DNA of 64,000 nucleotides. Origin: Persicimonas caeni. Its GTDB lineage: Bacteria > Myxococcota_A > Bradymonadia > Bradymonadales > Bradymonadaceae. Location: NCBI RefSeq assembly GCF_006517175.1, contig NZ_CP041186.1, positions 310,001 to 374,000 on the forward strand, in the 5' to 3' direction. The notes under the pieces are model-generated. The model made no database searches. It saw nothing but the letters and a program-made list of their open reading frames with translations, and had not been told where the DNA came from. Numbering within the stretch: position 1 is the stretch's first letter; every line of letters starts with the position of its first letter. This document shows, one piece after another, positions 475 through 29,837 of the stretch. The translations under genes and the position numbers were made by a program.

Positions 475-979
475 GATTCTCCCGTCGCGCTGAATGAGCA
501 AGTCGCGCCCCCTTGATGAGCCGCGCCCGTATCGTCGACATATGTCGACACATTTATGATCCGTGAGACACTGATTAGCGCGCGGGTGGGAGAAGCGGAA
601 TGGTCAGATTGTCTAAGGGTTCCGATGTGAAGGCGCTGCAGGGATCACACGCCTTCTATTGAGGTGGAACTACTATTGATGGGCGGACGGTCAGAGGCGT
701 TTGCGCGTGGCGGTCGTCTTGCTGATAAGCCACGTGGCTATGGGCGCATCGCACCGCCTCGCGCAAACGCTGCGCATCGTCCGCCCTTCAATAATAAATC
801 CTTCAATAGCAGGCGCTGCTCGCCTGCAAGGCGTACGAATCGAACGCCCTGCAGGGGGCAGACGCCTGCTATTGAGGTGGAACTACTATTGATGGGCGGA
901 CGGTCAGAGGCGTTTGCGCGTGGCGGTCGTCTTGCCGATAAGCCACGTGGCTATTGGCGCATCGCACCGCCTTAGACGC
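475..979. other. Intergenic region, 505 bp, mostly repeat
   Basis: No credible gene is seen here. The region lies between the start of the left-edge lipoprotein gene and the stop of the next minus-strand gene. It is filled from about 650 to 972 by a composite direct and inverted repeat that is listed separately. The promoter of the left-edge gene should lie in 475-640. Confidence 0.7.
650..972. repeat. Composite REP/MITE-like repeat: two 104-bp direct copies plus inverted arms
   Basis: A 104-bp block at 656-759 is repeated almost exactly at 869-972, with only a couple of substitutions. Between them, 761-815 is an imperfect reverse complement of 650-706; the pairing includes GGGCGGACGG against CCGTCCGCCC-like arms and GCGTTTGCGC against GCGCAAACGC. 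The whole can fold into a large hairpin followed by a second copy of the left half. It encodes no transposase, so it is best read as a non-autonomous dispersed element. Confidence 0.8.
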
Positions 980-5399: not shown

Positions 5400-7205
5400 T
5401 CAACGCGCAATCCGCTGCATATACACCGCCCCCGCCTTACCGGCGCTGGTGTCGGTCATATCGCCGTTGATTCCGCCCGAGCCGCCACTCTCGTGGTGTG
5501 CGCCCACGACCAAACGGTCCGCGTCGGCGCTGATCGCCAACGACTGACCAAAGCGCTGCAGCCCGTAGGAGTTGGGCGCTTTGATATACAGGTCGTGCGT
5601 CCAGGTGCCGGCGTTGCGGGTGAACGTGTAAGCCGCGCCCGAGTCGGTGTGGCTCTGCTGGAAGTTGGTCATATTGCCATTGAGCCCGGCGGCGTCGCTC
5701 CCCTCGAGCACCGCGCCCACGGCGAGGGTATCGCCGCTGGCGCTCAGGTCGATCGACTGGCCGAAGACGGGGTTGTAGGAGGACACGTTGTTGGGCGCCT
5801 TGATGTAGACCTGCTGGCTCCAACTCGTGCCGGCGCGGGTGAAGACGTAGACCGCGCCGGTGCGCAAATCGTCCAGGTTCTGATCCGCGCCAACACCGCT
5901 GTCACCGCTCTTCTCGCCAGGGGCGCTCACCGCAAGGGTGTCGCCGGCCAAGGCGAGCTTGTAGCCGAACGAATCGTTGCGTCCGGCGTTCGACGCCTTG
6001 ATATAGGCCTGCTGCGCCCAGCTCTGCCCGTCGCGGGTGTAGACGAAGACCGAGCCGGCGTCCTCGAGGTTGTTGTTGGAGGCGTCAGCGTCGACCCCGG
6101 TCGAGTCGCTGTCGTCCTGGCGCACACCGACGGCGATGGTGTCGCCGTCGATGGCCACGGAGGCGCCGTACCAGTCCTCGTGGCCCGCGTTCGCGGCCTT
6201 CAAATAGGTGCTCTGGGCCCACGCGCCCTGCGCGTCGCGCTCGAAGACGTAGGCCGCCCCGGAGTCGGGAGCTTCGTCGTTGGTCCCGTCGCCATCAATG
6301 GTGCGTGTCTTGCTGTCCTCTTTGAACGCGCCCACCACGATCGTGTCGCCGTCGATGTCCACGGCGTTGCCGAACTCGTCTTCGGTGCCGGCGTTGGAGG
6401 CCTGCAACATGGTGGTTTGGATCCAGTCGCCCTGGGCGTCGCGGTCGAAGACGTACGCCGCCCCGGTGGAGCTGGCCACGCCGGTCGCGCCCACTACGAT
6501 CGTGGCGCCCGAGATGGCCACCGAGGTGCCGAACTTGTGTCCTTCGTCGTAATTGTCGGCGACGAGCGCCGCCTGCTGCGTCCACGTGGTGCCGTCGCGC
6601 TCGAAGACGTAGGCCATGCCCGAGCGGAAATTCGGGATCTCCGTGGCGGGCTCGTCCCAGAACGCCCCGACGACCAGCGTCTTGCCGTCGGCGCTCAGGT
6701 CGACGGCGTTGCCGAAGAAGTCTTGGGCGTAGGGGGAGTCGGCCTTGATATAGGCTTCTTGATAAGCCTCACAATCGACGCCCAGCACGGCGTAGCAATC
6801 ATCGTCGGTGAAGCACTCGGTGTCGGGGCCAGTCGGGTCGTCGCCCGCTGCGTTGACCGTGCCGCTGTCGCACGCCACGCAGGCGCCGGCTTCCACGCGC
6901 TCGTTTTCGGCGCACAGGGCCGGACCGGTGTCTTCTGGACCGGTGTCTTCGCCGCCCGTATCGACTGCCCCGGTGTCCTCGGTGCCCGCGTCGTCGGCTG
7001 CGGCATCTTCGCTGCCCGTATCTTCGGCCCCCGTATCGTTCGAACCGGTATCTTCGGCGCCGGCGTCCGAGCCGCCGGTGTCGGCGAGCGTGTTGTTGGT
7101 TTGCTTCTTGTCGTCGTCGTCACCTCCACAGCCGACGACCGGGGCGGCCGCCAGGGTCAACGCAGCGACGAGGGTGATCGGACGGATTGCACTCCTAAAC
7201 TTCAT
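5400..7205 (-). CDS. FG-GAP repeat lipoprotein (predicted beta-propeller)
   Basis: Predicted 601-residue lipoprotein. ATG 7205 is the start that gives a signal peptide ending in VVGC and follows a GGAGA ribosome binding site. After a DTG/DAG-rich acidic linker and a short Cys-containing segment (CVACDSG), at least seven FG-GAP-type units follow, each with the pattern YIKA..., FG.....SADGDTLAVGA and GAAYVF.RD. Such repeats usually build a seven-bladed propeller and bind metal or partner proteins at the surface. It lies in a run of minus-strand lipoprotein genes. Confidence 0.9.
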   Translation of the reverse strand: MKFRSAIRPITLVAALTLAAAPVVGCGGDDDDKKQTNNTLADTGGSDAGAEDTGSNDTGAEDTGSEDAAADDAGTEDTGAVDTGGEDTGPEDTGPALCAENERVEAGACVACDSGTVNAAGDDPTGPDTECFTDDDCYAVLGVDCEAYQEAYIKADSPYAQDFFGNAVDLSADGKTLVVGAFWDEPATEIPNFRSGMAYVFERDGTTWTQQAALVADNYDEGHKFGTSVAISGATIVVGATGVASSTGAAYVFDRDAQGDWIQTTMLQASNAGTEDEFGNAVDIDGDTIVVGAFKEDSKTRTIDGDGTNDEAPDSGAAYVFERDAQGAWAQSTYLKAANAGHEDWYGASVAIDGDTIAVGVRQDDSDSTGVDADASNNNLEDAGSVFVYTRDGQSWAQQAYIKASNAGRNDSFGYKLALAGDTLAVSAPGEKSGDSGVGADQNLDDLRTGAVYVFTRAGTSWSQQVYIKAPNNVSSYNPVFGQSIDLSASGDTLAVGAVLEGSDAAGLNGNMTNFQQSHTDSGAAYTFTRNAGTWTHDLYIKAPNSYGLQRFGQSLAISADADRLVVGAHHESGGSGGINGDMTDTSAGKAGAVYMQRIAR

Positions 7206-7343
7206 TTCATTCTCCGAATGTAAACGAGTCCCACAACATGATTCGTATTGAAAATGATGTGACCACATCGGGGGCACGCATCGGAATAGTCATTTCGTCT
7301 ACCGAGACAAAACAATGGAATTGCCAACACTTACACACCTCGC

Positions 7344-7462: not shown

Positions 7463-8308
7463 TTACAGGTTGCTCGTCTCCAGACGCTGCTGCCAGCCGA
7501 ACAGGGCCTTGCCGCTGGTCGAGTTGAAGTACTGGCAATACAGGTAGCGGCCCTTGGGGAAGTCCTTATCCTCGTAGTCCGTCTCCTGGTACAGCTTGCG
7601 GTTGACGCAGAAGCCAAGCTGGGTCTTGCCCTCGGCCTCCAGCTTGTCGCGCCACTTGCCGCCGCGCATCGAATTGCTCCCCTCGGCGCACTCGTAGCCC
7701 TCGCCCTGGTCGTGGTTGCACATGAGCATGAAGTAGTATGGCTTCATGCGGTCCATGCTGTACGGGTACATATTCGGGTTCTTGATCATGCCCGCGCTCG
7801 GGTCGTCGGCGTAGACGCACTGGACTTCCCATTTGTTGGAGTTGCCGAGCTCCTTGTATTTGGCCGTGTCGACGGTCAGCGCCACGCATTGCTCGGGCTC
7901 CATGGCGCCCAGATAGCAGCCATTGGTCATCTCGACCGGCTCGCGCTCGAGGAAGCCGGTGCGATCGTCGGTCTTCATGCCCTGGGTGAACTTGTACTTG
8001 GCGACCTTGCCGTACTGGACATCCTGGGGCTTCAGGTCTGGGATGCACGACAGCATCTTGTTGGGAAGCTCGGGGTTGGGCTCCGGGTCGGGGACATTAG
8101 AGGCTTCGGCCGCCTCGCCCTCGGACGCGCTCTCGCCATCGGACGCGCTCTCGCCATCGGATGAGGTCTCACCACCGGACGCGCTCTCGGCGCTCCCCGA
8201 AGCGCCACCGGAAGTCATCTGCTTGAGCACCGACGAGCAACCCGCCGTCGACAAGGCGACTGTGGCCACCAACAAAACCAGACCAGCTTGTTTACGCACG
8301 TTCATCAT
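7463..8308 (-). CDS. Lipoprotein of unknown function with Ser/Glu/Gly linker
   Basis: Predicted 281-residue lipoprotein starting at ATG 8308 (a second ATG follows directly) behind AGAGGTAGGA. The lipobox is STAGC at about residue 24. A low-complexity SASGGETSSDGESASDGE linker comes next, partly encoded by an 18-bp tandem duplication near 8124-8160. The folded part, about 200 residues, has six well-spaced cysteines and motifs such as CYLGAMEPEQC, CNHDQGEGYEC and YLYCQYF. No family was recognised. A terminator follows at 7344-7380, and a tandem 17-bp array lies about 140 bases upstream. Confidence 0.85.
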   Translation of the reverse strand: MMNVRKQAGLVLLVATVALSTAGCSSVLKQMTSGGASGSAESASGGETSSDGESASDGESASEGEAAEASNVPDPEPNPELPNKMLSCIPDLKPQDVQYGKVAKYKFTQGMKTDDRTGFLEREPVEMTNGCYLGAMEPEQCVALTVDTAKYKELGNSNKWEVQCVYADDPSAGMIKNPNMYPYSMDRMKPYYFMLMCNHDQGEGYECAEGSNSMRGGKWRDKLEAEGKTQLGFCVNRKLYQETDYEDKDFPKGRYLYCQYFNSTSGKALFGWQQRLETSNL

Positions 8309-8621
8309 TCCTACCTCTGAAGTTTGCGGTCGCCGAACCGGCAGTCACCGTCGCCCGGCATTGACGTTCTCGAATCTTCCTTGGCGAGGAGGACGAACGA
8401 TGCCGCCCGCTCTCGCGACGGCACGGACTAGACCACGGCATCGCGTCGAATCGGAATGGTCAATGCGTCCATCTGGTTAAGGCGTCTATTTGGTCAAAAT
8501 GTCTATCTAGTTAATCCGTCTAACTTCAACGGATGGAACTGGGCTCTGCCGACGCTCCCCCGTTAAATGAAGGTAGTGTAAATAGTGATAGCACTGTTCC
8601 GTCCGAGAGCTGACAAAAACC
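8309..8621. other. Divergent promoter region, 313 bp
   Basis: The region separates the minus-strand lipoprotein gene at 8308 from the plus-strand regulator gene at 8622. It carries no gene. Its main feature is the 17-bp tandem array at 8449-8533. Confidence 0.7.
8449..8533 (-). repeat. Array of about five degenerate 17-bp direct repeats
   Basis: Read on the minus strand, successive 17-bp units are TCCGTTGAAGTTAGACG, GATTAACTAGATAGACA, TTTTGACCAAATAGACG, CCTTAACCAGATGGACG and CATTGACCATTCCGATT. The conserved core is TTGACCA or TTAACCA, followed by AGACG. A second array with the same period and a TTGACCAA core lies at 25420-25487. This one sits about 140 bases upstream of the minus-strand lipoprotein gene, with the core pointing towards it. 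Tandem binding sites for a regulator or multiple -35 elements are possible readings. Confidence 0.75.
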
Positions 8622-9887
8622 ATGAGCAACGTCGTACGCGCAGCACACGCAGCTTATATCCTCGAGGGCAACGAGGAGGAATGGCTCGAGAATCTGACTG
8701 GCGTCATGGCCCCCCTATTGGACCGGGGCCGTGGCTTTGTGGGATTTCGCTGGAGGAACATGCCTTCGGGCGGAGTACGCGCAGACAATTTCGCGCTGGT
8801 CGGCGGGCGCCCCGGGGACCACGAGATGCTGCACAGCCTGCACGCCAATCTCGACCGCACGCGCGCCTCGCTGGCTTATCGAGCGCCTTACACGTTTCGG
8901 TCGCTCTCCGAAATCGCCACGGAGCACCCAACTCTCGTCGAACTCGGCGAAGACCGAGACATGCAGCAGATCGCCCATGCGCGCGAGTTGCTCGACTTCG
9001 AGATGCTGCGCGTCGACGACGCCGATGGACAGGGCTGGATGTTTTCGGTGCTGCGCAAGGACTTCTGCACGATTCCCGCGCGCCGCCGTGATGTTTGGGA
9101 GCGGGTCGGCGCGCACATCGCAGCGGGCGCACGGCTTCGGATGAAGCTGTCGAAGCCCGATCTCGACGGGGCGGCGGCGGTATACGACGGCGCGGCGAAG
9201 ACGTTGAATATCAACGAGCCGAGCCTGCAGCGAAAAGACCGCCGGCATCGGCTCATGGAGCTCATCGAGGCGCGTCAGCACGCTGAAGACATTGCAGGCA
9301 ACTCGCCCCTCGAGGCGCTGGATCTGTGGGGAGGTCTCGTCGATGGCCAATGGTCGCTGCTCGACGTCGTCGACTCGGACGGGCGCACCTACACGGTGCT
9401 GCGCGAAAATCCGTTGAGGGTACGCAGCAGCGTCTCGCTGACCGAGCGGGAGCGCCAGGTCGCCTGGCTCGTCGGCCGCGGCCACCACGTCAAATTGGTC
9501 GCCTACGAGCTGGGGCTGTCGGCGTCGACCATTCGATCGCAGCTTCGCTCGGCGCTGCGCAAACTCAACCTCGACGACCGCAGTTCCCTCTGCCGACTGG
9601 TCGCCAACATCACGGCGCCGGACACGGTGACCTCGCTCGACGGGCTCGGCGTGCTCGCCCTCGCCGAGGCGCCGGTGCATATCCCCGAGTCACTCACCGA
9701 CGCCGAGCGCGAGGTGGCCCGCCTCCTGTACGAGGGGCTCTCCAACCGCGAGATCGCCGAGCACCGCGGCACGGCTACGCGCACCGTGGCCAACCAACTC
9801 GCCTCCATCTACGCCAAACTCGGGGTCGCCTCGCGAGACGACCTTGTTCAACACCTCGCCGGCGGCCCGGCGCACGAGCCGGCGTAG
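8622..9887 (+). CDS. Transcriptional regulator with two LuxR-type HTH domains (paralog 1)
   Basis: 421 residues. The N-terminal two thirds, about residues 1-265, is an unrecognised sensor-like region. Two LuxR/GerE-type DNA-binding domains follow: residues about 270-330 (LTERERQVAWLVGRG ... SASTIRSQLRSALRKL) and about 355-415 (LTDAEREVARLLYEGLSNRE ... RTVANQLASIYAKLGV). Both keep the opening L-T-x-x-E-R/A-E-x-x-V/E-A signature. No receiver domain or ATPase is visible. A paralog of identical length follows at 10009 on the same strand. The ribosome binding site is weak. The ligand or signal is unknown. Confidence 0.9.
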   Translation: MSNVVRAAHAAYILEGNEEEWLENLTGVMAPLLDRGRGFVGFRWRNMPSGGVRADNFALVGGRPGDHEMLHSLHANLDRTRASLAYRAPYTFRSLSEIATEHPTLVELGEDRDMQQIAHARELLDFEMLRVDDADGQGWMFSVLRKDFCTIPARRRDVWERVGAHIAAGARLRMKLSKPDLDGAAAVYDGAAKTLNINEPSLQRKDRRHRLMELIEARQHAEDIAGNSPLEALDLWGGLVDGQWSLLDVVDSDGRTYTVLRENPLRVRSSVSLTERERQVAWLVGRGHHVKLVAYELGLSASTIRSQLRSALRKLNLDDRSSLCRLVANITAPDTVTSLDGLGVLALAEAPVHIPESLTDAEREVARLLYEGLSNREIAEHRGTATRTVANQLASIYAKLGVASRDDLVQHLAGGPAHEPA

Positions 9888-9938
9888 GCCCTCATCTCCG
9901 GTGTTGGTGATGCTTGAGTCTCCCGCCCTCCCCTGTTA

Positions 9939-9977
9939 ACTTCGCGGAACATTATCAAAATAATGTTAATGCGAAGT
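9939..9977. promoter_or_regulatory. 39-bp AT-rich interrupted palindrome upstream of second LuxR-type gene
   Basis: The arms ACTTCGC + AACATTAT and ATAATGTT + GCGAAGT pair perfectly, with a two-base versus three-base bulge and a CAAA centre. The element lies 31 bases upstream of the start at 10009 and is far more AT-rich than its surroundings. It has no T run, so an operator or promoter-overlapping site is more likely than a terminator. Confidence 0.6.
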
Positions 9978-10008
9978 CAAAGTTATAGCAGGTAGAGGAA
10001 ATTCGAAG

Positions 10009-11274
10009 ATGAGCAACGCAGTCACCGCGGCTCACACGGCGTACATGCTCGACGGGAACGACGGGGAGTGGCTGGAGCGGCTGACGGAGTTGATGGGGCC
10101 CATGTTGAGCCGTGGGCGAGGTCTTCTGGGGTATCGCTGGCGCCGTTCTGCCGACGGCGGAGTGCGTGTCGGCGAGTTGTATGTGGCCGGAGGCAAGCCC
10201 GGTGATGAAGAGATGCTGCGCGAGCTCATCGCGAACCTCGATACCACCCGTGCCTCGCTCGCCTACGGCGCTCCGTATAGCTTCCGTTCCTTGTCGGAAA
10301 TTGCGCAGGAACACCCAACTCTGAGCGACCTGACTGACGACCGCGACATGCAGCGTATCGCTCACGATCGTGAGGTGGTCGACTTCGAAATGCTGCGGGT
10401 CGACGAATCGGATGGACGCGGCTGGATGTTTACGGTGTTGCGCACCGAGGTGGGCGGGATTGTCGCGCCGCGGCGTGCACTTTGGGACCGCGTACGCGCC
10501 CATATCGCCGCCGGTGCCAGGCTTCGGATGCGTCTGGCCAAGCCGGATCTCGACGGCGCCGGGGCCGTGTACGACCCGACGTCGGGAAGGCTCGACGTCA
10601 ACTCCAGCGAGATGAGGACCAAAGCACGTCGCCGCCGGCTGTTGGAGCTCATCGAAGCCAGGCGGCACGCCGAAGAGCTTGCCGAGAAGAACCCGTTAGA
10701 AGCAATGGATCTGTGGCAGGGGTTGGTCGATGGGCGCTGGTCGCTGCTCGACGTAGTCGACACCGATGGACGTGCGTTCACGGTGCTCAAGGAGAACCCG
10801 CTGCAGGTGCGAAGCCGCGCCGCGTTGAGCGAGCGCGAACGCCAGGTCGCTTTTCTGGTCGGTCGCGGCCATCACGTCAAACTAGTCGCCTACGAACTGG
10901 GCCTGACGGCATCGACGGTGCGCTCGCAGCTGCGCTCGGCGCTTCGCAAACTCAACCTCGAGGACCGCAGCGCACTGTGTCGTCTCGTCGCAGATATGTC
11001 CCAGGCCGGCGCGGCGACTCGTGTCGAAGATGTTGGCGTATTGGCCCTCGCCAAAGCACCTTTGAAGATCCCCGAGTCGCTGACCGACGCCGAGCGCGAG
11101 GTCGCTCAATTGGTCTACAAAGGGCTAACCAACGGTGACATCGCCCGGACACGAAGCACAACTACCCACACTGTGGCAAACCAGCTCGCCACGATTTACC
11201 GCAAACTCGATATCAGCTCGCGCGACGAGTTGATGCAGTGTTTGGCAGGCAGCGGCGAGTCATTCATGAGTTGA
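10009..11274 (+). CDS. Transcriptional regulator with two LuxR-type HTH domains (paralog 2)
   Basis: 421 residues, the same length and layout as the gene at 8622, and clearly similar along the whole sequence (shared blocks include RASLAYRAPY/RASLAYGAPY, FRSLSEIA and GRGHHVKLVAYELGL). Tandem LuxR/GerE HTH domains occupy about residues 270-330 and 355-415. The second HTH has diverged (LTNGDIARTRSTTTHTVANQL), which may change its target. A tandem duplication is the simplest origin. The 3' end overlaps the convergent hydroxylase gene by 11 bases. An interrupted palindrome lies directly upstream. Confidence 0.9.
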   Translation: MSNAVTAAHTAYMLDGNDGEWLERLTELMGPMLSRGRGLLGYRWRRSADGGVRVGELYVAGGKPGDEEMLRELIANLDTTRASLAYGAPYSFRSLSEIAQEHPTLSDLTDDRDMQRIAHDREVVDFEMLRVDESDGRGWMFTVLRTEVGGIVAPRRALWDRVRAHIAAGARLRMRLAKPDLDGAGAVYDPTSGRLDVNSSEMRTKARRRRLLELIEARRHAEELAEKNPLEAMDLWQGLVDGRWSLLDVVDTDGRAFTVLKENPLQVRSRAALSERERQVAFLVGRGHHVKLVAYELGLTASTVRSQLRSALRKLNLEDRSALCRLVADMSQAGAATRVEDVGVLALAKAPLKIPESLTDAEREVAQLVYKGLTNGDIARTRSTTTHTVANQLATIYRKLDISSRDELMQCLAGSGESFMS

Positions 11275-24987: not shown

Positions 24988-25218
24988 TCAGGCCCGGTCG
25001 CGGATTTCGCCGTGGCCGGCCTGCGCGGCACAATTCGCACAGCAATACATCTCCCCGTCGACCTCATTGCCGTGGCCGATGATGCGCACGCCGCACGTGC
25101 CGCAATCGGGCGCCAGCTCGTCGACAGCGCACTCGAAGCAGTCGAAGACGTACTCGTCGCCTTCGTATTCGATGATCAACGGCTTGTCGTAGTCGTTTCC
25201 GCAGACTTGGCATTCCAT
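24988..25218 (-). CDS. Small zinc-ribbon-like protein
   Basis: 76 residues from ATG 25218, behind GGGGAGG. Paired cysteines CQVCGNDY (C3, C6), CFEC, CGTC and CCANC suggest two zinc-binding sites, and His in IIGHGNEVDG may contribute. Small Cys-rich proteins of this type are widespread in bacteria and of unknown role, possibly metal handling or protein interaction. Confidence 0.8.
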   Translation of the reverse strand: MECQVCGNDYDKPLIIEYEGDEYVFDCFECAVDELAPDCGTCGVRIIGHGNEVDGEMYCCANCAAQAGHGEIRDRA

Positions 25219-25419
25219 GCGCAACCTCCCCTGATTGAGTCTGTTTTCCAGTCGCGTTCGATCGGTCGCTCGAAACCCAAAGATGGGTACGAGAGCCGAG
25301 AGCGCAACACTCTTCCCTCGCCAGCTCAACAACTTGCAGCGAGCCCGTCGGGTTGAACCGATCGGTGGTAGCACTACCTTCGTACAAGAGGCTGCACCCT
25401 TCGCATCACGGCTCGACTG

Positions 25420-25487
25420 TTTGACAAAGCCAATTAGTTGACAAAGCCACTTATTTGACCAAGCCAGTTATTTGACCAAGCAGGGGA
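25420..25487 (+). repeat. Four 17-bp tandem repeats abutting a start codon
   Basis: The units are TTTGACAAAGCCAATTA, GTTGACAAAGCCACTTA, TTTGACCAAGCCAGTTA and TTTGACCAAGCAGGGGA, in perfect 17-bp register. The last unit runs into the GGGGAAG ribosome binding site, four bases before ATG 25492. The TTGACCAA core and the 17-bp period match the array at 8449-8533. TTGACA is also the sigma-70 -35 consensus. Confidence 0.88.
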
Positions 25488-25491
25488 AGTC

Positions 25492-27051
25492 ATGTCCGAC
25501 GACAATCATGGCGGCATGGGAGAACGCGGTGTGTCACGACCGATGGCACACGGCTCCGGCGACCACGACGGCGGCGACGGCGGCGACGGCTCGATGAGCC
25601 CGGGCCAGCGCGAGAAGATGCTCCACATGCACCACAAAAAGACGCTGTGGTGCTACTGGACCGTCATCCTGCTCGGCCTGTGGACCATGAGCGCCCCGTT
25701 TACCTTCGGGTATCTGGGCGAGGCGGCCGATCTCGGCCGCGAGGTCTGGATGAGCGACAACGTGCGCATCTGGGGCATGGTCGCCAGCGAGATCATCAGC
25801 GGCCTCGTTCTGGTCGTCTTCGGCTGGCGCTCCCTCAAGCCCGGTCGGCCCATCAGCCAGTGGATCTGCTGCTTTGCGGGCATCTGGCTGAGCGCCGCCC
25901 CCCTGCTGCTATGGTCCCCCAACGCCGCGGCCTACCTCAACGCCACCGTCGTCGGCGCCCTGGTCATCGCCCTGACCATTCTCATCCCGGGCATGCCCAA
26001 CATGATCATGTACATGAAGATGGGCGGCGACCTCCCCAAGGGCTGGTCGTACAACCCGTCGAGCTGGGCGCAGCGCTCGGTCATGATCGGCCTGGGGTTC
26101 CTCGGCTGGCTCGTCTCACGCTACCTGGGCGCCTTCCAACTCGGCTATATCGACCACATGTGGGACCCCTTCTTCGGCGAGGGCTCGCGCAAGGTGCTCA
26201 TGTCCAATATGAGCCACATGTGGCCCATCTCCGACGCCGGCCTGGGCGCCTTCTCGTACACCTTCGAGTTTCTGATGGGTTGGATGGGCGCGCCCAGCCG
26301 CTGGCGCACGATGCCCTGGATGGTCACCTTCTTCGGCATTCTGGTCATCCCGCTGGGCCTCACCCACATCCTGCTGGTCATCTCCCAGCCGGTCATCGTC
26401 GGCTATTGGTGCACCATGTGCCTGCTCGCCGCGGCCATCATGCTGCCGATGATCCCGCTCGAGGTCGACGAGGTCATCGCCATGGGCCAGCACGTCAAGC
26501 GCCGCGTCGACGCCGGTGAGCCGTTCTGGAGAGTCTTCTGGAAGGGTGGCGACGCCAGTGAGGCGGGCCAAGACGAGCGCAGCCCCGAGTTCATCGAGTT
26601 TCACGACCGTCCCCTCGAGGTGACCAAGGCCGCCTTCTGGGGCATGAGCTGGTCGTGGTGGCTCGCCGCCTGCACCGCCATCGGCATCTGGCTGATGTTC
26701 GCGCCCACCGTCTTCGGCTTCGAGAAGACCATCCCGGCCGACATCCACCACCTGGGCGGCGCCCTCATCGTGACCACCAGCGTCATCAGCATGGGCGAAG
26801 TGATCCGCCGCGGGCGCTACGTCAACCTGCTGCTCGGATTGATCGTGGGTGTGGGGCCGTGGCTCTTCAGCGGCATCGGCGTGACCGCCAGCATCCTGGC
26901 GAGTGTGGCCGGCGCGCTGGTCATCGGCCTGTCACTGCCGCTGGGGCCGATTCGCGAGAGCTACGGAAGTTGGAACAAGCGCATCAGCAACGATCCCACC
27001 GACACGCCCAGCCCGTCACGCCATGCCGGGGCCGAGCCCCAGCACGCGTGA
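25492..27051 (+). CDS. Polytopic membrane protein with VKOR-like CxxC segment and SPW repeat
   Basis: 519 residues with about twelve membrane segments. The N-terminal 45 residues are Gly/Asp/His-rich (HGSGDHDGGDGGDG). A central segment, ISQPVIVGYWCTMCLLAA at about residue 300, carries the CxxC of vitamin K epoxide reductase-like proteins, which make or transfer disulfides in the periplasm. Downstream, SWSWWLAACTAIGIWLMFAP matches the SPW repeat family, and the first membrane pair (YWTVILLGLWTMSAPFTFGY) looks like another SPW unit. The combination suggests a redox membrane protein, but no activity is known. A 17-bp tandem array sits directly upstream. Confidence 0.82.
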   Translation: MSDDNHGGMGERGVSRPMAHGSGDHDGGDGGDGSMSPGQREKMLHMHHKKTLWCYWTVILLGLWTMSAPFTFGYLGEAADLGREVWMSDNVRIWGMVASEIISGLVLVVFGWRSLKPGRPISQWICCFAGIWLSAAPLLLWSPNAAAYLNATVVGALVIALTILIPGMPNMIMYMKMGGDLPKGWSYNPSSWAQRSVMIGLGFLGWLVSRYLGAFQLGYIDHMWDPFFGEGSRKVLMSNMSHMWPISDAGLGAFSYTFEFLMGWMGAPSRWRTMPWMVTFFGILVIPLGLTHILLVISQPVIVGYWCTMCLLAAAIMLPMIPLEVDEVIAMGQHVKRRVDAGEPFWRVFWKGGDASEAGQDERSPEFIEFHDRPLEVTKAAFWGMSWSWWLAACTAIGIWLMFAPTVFGFEKTIPADIHHLGGALIVTTSVISMGEVIRRGRYVNLLLGLIVGVGPWLFSGIGVTASILASVAGALVIGLSLPLGPIRESYGSWNKRISNDPTDTPSPSRHAGAEPQHA

Positions 27052-29067: not shown

Positions 29068-29202
29068 GTTCGGGAGGGTTGGGAACTAGTCGCGCGACCT
29101 CTTTTCGGTGCGAGTGCTTCCAGCTCTCGCCTTCGAGGGCAAGATGCCCACGCACCGAGCCTTCTTTCGTGTAGTTACTTCAATGCGTGCGACGCACGAT
29201 TG

Positions 29203-29341
29203 GTGGCCTTGCAGAAGAGGGGCGCTATTTAGATGGCGTGCAGTGGACCTATTGTTGGCCTTGCCGGAGAGGGGCGCCATCTAGATGGCGTGCGGTGGAC
29301 CTATTGGTAGCCTTGCAGAAGAGGGGCGCCATCTATTTGGG
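29203..29341. repeat. 52-bp tandem repeat, about 2.7 copies
   Basis: Copies start at 29203, 29255 and 29307, each with CCTTGCAGAAGAGGGGCGC or a close variant, and the first two with TAGATGGCGTGC and GTGGACCTATTG. A related fragment, GGGCGCCCTATTTAGATGGC, recurs at 29481-29500, followed by TCTGCAAGGCCA, which is the reverse complement of the unit's start. Confidence 0.85.
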
Positions 29342-29518: not shown

Positions 29519-29837
29519 CACCTCTCCACACAACTCGAACCACCTCTCCACACAACTCGAACCGCCTCTGGGCCTCCGCAACTCACCTCTGGGCCTCCGC
29601 GAGTCACCTCTGGATCCCGGCGATCGACCTCTGGACCCGCGCAATCCATCTCTGGACCCGCGCCATCTTTCTCTGGACCCCCGTCGAGTCATCTCTGGAC
29701 TCGCGCGCGCTTTCTCTGGACCCGCGCGATCAATCTCTGGAGCCCCGTCGAGCAATCTCTGGGACTCCGCGAGTCATCTCTGGAACTCCGCGAGTCGTCT
29801 CTGGGCCACGGGGAGCAATCTCTGGGCCCCGCACAGC
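29519..29837. repeat. Degenerate tandem array of about fifteen 21-22 bp units
   Basis: Units share the core NATCTCTGGACCCGCGCGATC (variants CACCTCTGGGCCTCCGCGAGT and AATCTCTGGGCCCCGCACAGC). The first two copies carry CTCTCCACACAACTCGAAC. At least two units are 22 bp, which would break any reading frame, so the array is noncoding. It ends at the stop codon of the minus-strand lipoprotein gene at 29838. It is not CRISPR-like: there are no separate unique spacers of constant length. Confidence 0.88.

Follow-up and report, generated by a model that had tools for sequence, protein, structure and literature searches.

Does a short tandem array upstream of a gene take part in its control, or is it a duplication without a task? 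We asked this of array 1, which lies in a 64,000-nt stretch of Persicimonas caeni DNA (the window, to which plain positions refer) directly ahead of the gene for a membrane protein with an SPW repeat and a VKOR domain (SPW/VKOR), and of array 2, a second array in the same window (Table 1). A reading made from the sequence alone had described array 1 as four units in exact 17-bp register with a common core, and had interpreted it as either a multi-site operator or a promoter ladder of variable copy number. The register was borne out: units start at 25420, 25437, 25454 and 25471, and the last enters GGGGAAGTCATG ahead of the SPW/VKOR reading frame, keeping its first 11 bases and half-diverging over the rest into the ribosome-binding site. 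Tandem Repeats Finder (TRF) recovered 3.6 copies with 88% matches (score 89), and the best 51-base score at lag 17 had a binomial −log10 p of 16.1, compared to a maximum of 7.5 among 20 order-1 Markov resamples of the window scanned over all periods from 8 to 30. The description of the core stood in part, as TTGACCAA is found in units 3 and 4 only, while units 1 and 2 read TTGACAAA; common to all four units is TTGACNAAGC, and positions 1, 7 and 13 vary.

Table 1 Features of the window considered in this analysis.
Feature	Position	Strand	Description
Weaker single site	599..617	-	CTTAGACAATCTGACCATT; 116 bp before a predicted lipoprotein of 1253 aa that extends past the window
Single site	7285..7303	-	GGTAGACGAAATGACTATT; 98 bp before a predicted lipoprotein (likely start MKFRSAIRP in ORF 5400-7277)
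281-aa predicted lipoprotein gene	7463..8308	-	divergent from luxR; no Pfam domain
Array 2	8457..8524	-	four abutting 17-bp units, minus-strand GTTAGACGGATTAACTA, GATAGACATTTTGACCA, AATAGACGCCTTAACCA, GATGGACGCATTGACCA
LuxR-type protein (luxR)	8622..9887	+	two GerE helix-turn-helix (HTH) stretches; Pfam PF00196, E 1.8e-24
LuxR-type paralogue	10009..11274	+	67% identity to the 8622-9887 protein; two GerE stretches
Array 1	25420..25487	+	four 17-bp units, TTTGACAAAGCCAATTA / GTTGACAAAGCCACTTA / TTTGACCAAGCCAGTTA / TTTGACCAAGCAGGGGA
SPW/VKOR gene	25492..27051	+	519-aa membrane protein with SPW repeat domain (Pfam PF03779, E 4.1e-16) and VKOR domain (PF07884, E 1.6e-18)

In a promoter ladder, each TTGACA or TTGACC would be a −35 element and the copy number of the array would set the number of promoters. 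TTGACA is exact in units 1 and 2, but AAGCCA, which is not a −10 element, stands 17 bp past each TTGACA, no −10 hexamer occurs 16–18 bp past it, and the number of sigma-70-type pairs in 25200–25520 was zero. The array also reaches the ribosome-binding site, such that little space is left for start sites belonging to the later units. We regard a ladder as very improbable, and this part of the sequence-only reading found no support. The predicted RNA fold of 25400–25540 was no more stable than those of shuffled sequences (z 0.86).

The genome-wide search that had been suggested revealed no other array like array 1 in the single 8,047,206-bp contig (C1), of which the window is positions 310001–374000. 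Elsewhere in the genome, TTGAC is never repeated three times at 17-bp steps, and all four whole-genome matches to a degenerate three-unit pattern with 3 mismatches fall inside the two arrays (one match to the reversed control). No further copy of the array 1 unit was found at up to 2 mismatches, and an 18-base unit with up to 3 mismatches matched three of the array's own copies and eight other places, all at 3 mismatches, compared to four for the reversed control. A search of 95 genomes for array-1-like arrays matched, besides the own genome, only G049, whose two arrays (L012, L013) are unlike array 1. One of these (L013, 1501–1560) is a 17-bp TTGACTGCCCCTGAGAC tandem repeat that differs from array 1 outside TTGAC.

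The expectation that period and core would be kept in orthologous promoters also failed. SPW/VKOR relatives at E 1e-20 or better were present in 6 of 377 genomes sampled from the phylum, own genome included. Neither a 17-bp array nor a TTGAC series was found within the 600 bases ahead of the match in five homologues (L008, L087, L088, L089, L090) or in the own paralogue (L010); the best of these upstream regions agreed at 13 of 21 core positions, compared to 21 of 21 in each of the two arrays. These homologues are distant (39–60% identity), which makes for a weaker comparison than one within a genus. The 20 other family genomes searched include none of the genus, and array 1 is most probably a tandem duplication private to its lineage. 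The duplicated segment would be a 17-bp AT-rich stretch ending in the SPW/VKOR ribosome-binding site, and the array may either lack a function or act as a minor group of binding sites for some regulator.

The first of these options, a functionless minisatellite produced by replication slippage and one of many short non-coding repeats in this genome, falls somewhat short of an even chance in our judgment. A census of non-coding arrays (period no longer than 30, three copies or more) in some 0.84 Mb of own sequence counted 27, mostly with unrelated units and periods, which would fit a slippage origin. Three repeats of TTGACNAA at period 17 were found in 28 stretches among 84,980 species genomes from many unrelated phyla, most with near-identical units and without a common gene context, as one would expect if ordinary tandem duplications chanced to include the word. 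Against a functionless repeat, the differences among units 1–3 while TTGAC stays suggest that the array is not brand-new, and array 1 also lies at a start codon. The same period-17 pattern had zero occurrences in the viral contigs scanned. Three further ideas were rejected. A genome-wide habit of period 17 is not apparent, with 3 of 27 census arrays at this period (both studied arrays and an unrelated third); for a plasmid iteron, 72,556 plasmid records were searched and none matched at E 1 or below; and TAT ahead of TTGAC, seen at two of three array 1 junctions, occurred at both inner junctions in 2 of 28 foreign stretches and at one or more in 3 of 28, a post hoc comparison that was dropped.

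The second option is that array 1 works as a multi-site operator, on which a putative regulator that binds TTGACMAAG units 17 bp apart would block or activate SPW/VKOR expression at the ribosome-binding site. We consider this possible but lean against it. A repeat in fixed register does stand directly upstream of the start codon, TTGACNAAGC is retained in four of four units while three positions vary, and an unrelated array in a Pirellula metagenome-assembled genome (three copies of TTGACTAA at 17-bp steps; L172, 5427–5477) likewise enters a ribosome-binding site, there of a dehydrogenase-like gene, with the geometry of array 1. On the other hand, the site was not found to be kept at SPW/VKOR homologues or before other own genes, and solitary copies of the unit in the rest of the genome are not beyond chance. 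Moreover, 17 bp is about 1.6 helical turns of DNA, such that successive units would lie on different faces of the helix, which is an argument from geometry and not a test. On its own, array 1 would matter only once binding were demonstrated.

Array 2 had been placed near 8449 with the same period and core as array 1. The array is real (TRF: 3.9 copies, 71% matches; −log10 p 9.5) and shares period 17 with array 1, from which it lies 17 kb away, but sharing of the core was not above chance in column shuffles. When the unit profiles were aligned in every rotation and on both strands, 33% of shuffles were at least as similar, and 39% had an equally long or longer stretch of agreeing columns; the idea of a common reader thus gains little support from the shared word. 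On the minus strand, TTGACCAA occurs in one of four array 2 units, the other three reading TTAACCAG, TTGACCAT and TTAACTAG, and the rest of the unit is unlike array 1. Nothing beyond the period and a short word ties array 1 to array 2 in these comparisons, though the equal period and the 17-kb distance make a link possible. Such a link might mean that one LuxR-type protein binds both arrays, array 1 being a degenerate or half-site version, a proposal for which one can cite that TTGAC points to the downstream gene in both arrays and that TCGAC precedes unit 1 of array 1, eight bases ahead of its TTGAC, as in the array 2 motif. We find it improbable, since the array 2 motif matrix scores at most 3.8 on array 1, a value reached at 4 to 9 per 10,000 background positions and not unusual for a two-strand search, and the profile similarity is matched by a third of shuffles.

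We assessed the conservation of the array 2 unit in relatives. Its units begin 165–216 bp upstream of the start of the 281-aa lipoprotein, and luxR is 98 bp from the array. Among 55 genomes searched, four relatives encode LuxR-type orthologues (56–57% identity), each next to a divergent acidic lipoprotein gene with one good array 2 unit between that gene and luxR. A matrix built from the four own units had its best upstream match in this intergenic region at each of the four orthologous loci, two of which are almost identical (L055, L057), such that the four amount to about three independent observations. Scores were 21.4 at L055 and L057 (reached by 0 of 301,594 null positions), 16.1 at L058 (1 of 301,594) and 14.4 at L056 (2 of 301,594). 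The consensus of the site is TAGACGAATTGACTAT, and at every orthologous locus its TTGAC end faces the lipoprotein gene. Weak dyad symmetry was measured over 17 aligned sites (4.18 of 8 pairs; 0.86% of column shuffles were at least as symmetric). None of the four relatives has a recognisable homologue of the own 281-aa lipoprotein. In L055 and L057, array-2-like units occur at 1292 and 1360 (gene orientation), one of them weaker; they are 68 bp apart, equal to four 17-bp steps, with no clear units between them, and possibly represent a decayed array or a coincidence.

The array 2 unit also recurs before other genes. The consensus TRGACGNNTTRACYAT, derived from array 2 together with the sites in relatives, matched the own genome 14 times with at most one mismatch, compared to three matches for the reversed control. 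Seven of the 14 lie within 26 kb around luxR, and after removal of three array units, 4 of the remaining 11 fall in 0.3% of the genome. Single sites 75–180 bp ahead of acidic lipoprotein genes were found at 7285 and 599 in the window and at C1:306236, as well as at the distant C1:3856870 and C1:6702755. Other own sites of this type neighbour a protein kinase gene, an HU-like gene and an exporter operon; strong sites at C1:292764 and C1:299492 (12764 and 19492 in L028) flank this HlyD-like and peptidase/ABC exporter operon, named by eye from translations.

In the relatives' luxR regions, 10 of 14 matrix matches scoring at least 13.9 stand no more than 300 bp ahead of a predicted lipoprotein, compared to 81 of 3000 random positions; the 10 represent about six distinct sites, as two genomes (G016, G018) hardly differ in this region. 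Outside array 2, 4 of 24 matrix matches in the own genome precede a lipoprotein gene, of which two are within 13 kb of array 2 and two are in stretches chosen for TRGACGNNTTRACYAT matches; in unselected own stretches the count was 0 of 13, and the matrix alone therefore predicts poorly. All of these counts rest on a lipoprotein detector that was loosened after a first, strict version missed evident lipoproteins, and under the strict version they become 0 of 14 in the relatives and 3 of 24 in the own genome. A genome-wide model of the site, run on 21 family genomes with a cut-off of E 10, had matches in 10 of them, with 12 in the own genome, though E-values are weak for a 19-bp model and many of its 17 training sites are among the matches. 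These patterns suggest a local regulon with a few distant members, and not a clean genome-wide rule.

The multi-site operator reading thus fared differently in the two arrays. For array 2 it fits well with a unit that is single at orthologous places and recurs near several lipoprotein genes, among others, whereas for array 1 the findings that had been named as speaking against it, namely a lack of further arrays and of conservation at orthologous promoters, are largely what was observed. We therefore consider it fairly probable that array 2 is an operator multiplied in place and that array 1 is a separate private tandem duplication, with or without a role. The sequence of array 2, its conservation and the grouping of its sites around luxR are observations, from which we infer what binds the array and with which sign it acts. 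The neighbouring LuxR-type protein with two HTH stretches probably binds array 2, as judged by adjacency, with a GerE-type dimer or a tandem-HTH monomer on each 17-bp unit, and would set expression of neighbouring lipoprotein genes and of its own gene. Where relatives have a single site between the luxR-type and divergent lipoprotein genes, the four sites here, without spacers, may allow cooperative or graded binding, or higher occupancy, at the lipoprotein and luxR promoters. A more extensive version, in which the multiplied operator tunes a dispersed regulon of acidic surface lipoproteins and array 1 is an independent operator multiplication for another regulator, seems unlikely.

Multi-site operators with direct-repeat binding sites are known from bacterial promoters. 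Array 2 resembles them in having several copies of a short site in fixed register upstream of a gene, with a single copy in relatives, but differs in that its four 17-bp sites abut without a spacer and its binder is putative; array 1 lacks a single-copy relative. The dyad operators of LuxR/NarL (GerE) regulators are about as long as the array 2 site, which is weakly dyad and neighbours a GerE-type gene, yet the protein has two GerE stretches per chain and the site is no classical lux box. Copy-number-variable, phase-variable tandem repeats, as described for M. tuberculosis (PMC12817950), are likewise short bacterial tandem repeats, whereas the present analysis covers a single strain. P. caeni is reported to be a predatory bradymonad (PMC7188933), and the terms LuxR and lipoprotein are absent from the main texts of PMC7188933 and PMC7460792. 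Searches of the literature on 17-bp direct repeats, two-HTH LuxR proteins with lipoproteins, and repeat copy number returned, as judged from listings, nothing on the array locus. If the proposed operator is correct, it would provide a defined motif together with its candidate regulator and a set of target lipoprotein genes for Bradymonadales, a group of predators whose regulation is little described, and the relatives would offer a natural comparison of one site and four sites of the same operator.

Other repeats and possible sites were observed in these sequences. The array 2 unit was not found in the short upstream region of the LuxR paralogue; this region (9888–10008) contains an inverted pair, GTTAACTTCGC ... 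GCGAAGTCAAAG, around the palindrome AACATTATCAAAATAATGTT, a possible separate operator. The window has a 52-bp tandem array of 2.6 copies at 29199–29335 and a degenerate 21-bp array of 12 copies, outside predicted genes, at 29566–29826. Arrays of a 28–30 bp repeat that have a core in common lie far apart at three places of the genome, in both orientations (L026 14624–14818, L047 11270–11519, L035 19014–19146). Non-coding 8-bp repeats of AAAAGAGT, with up to 20 copies, occur at L040 8464–8625 and L050 10276–10346, and several more 8-bp arrays are present in the own-sequence sample used for the census.
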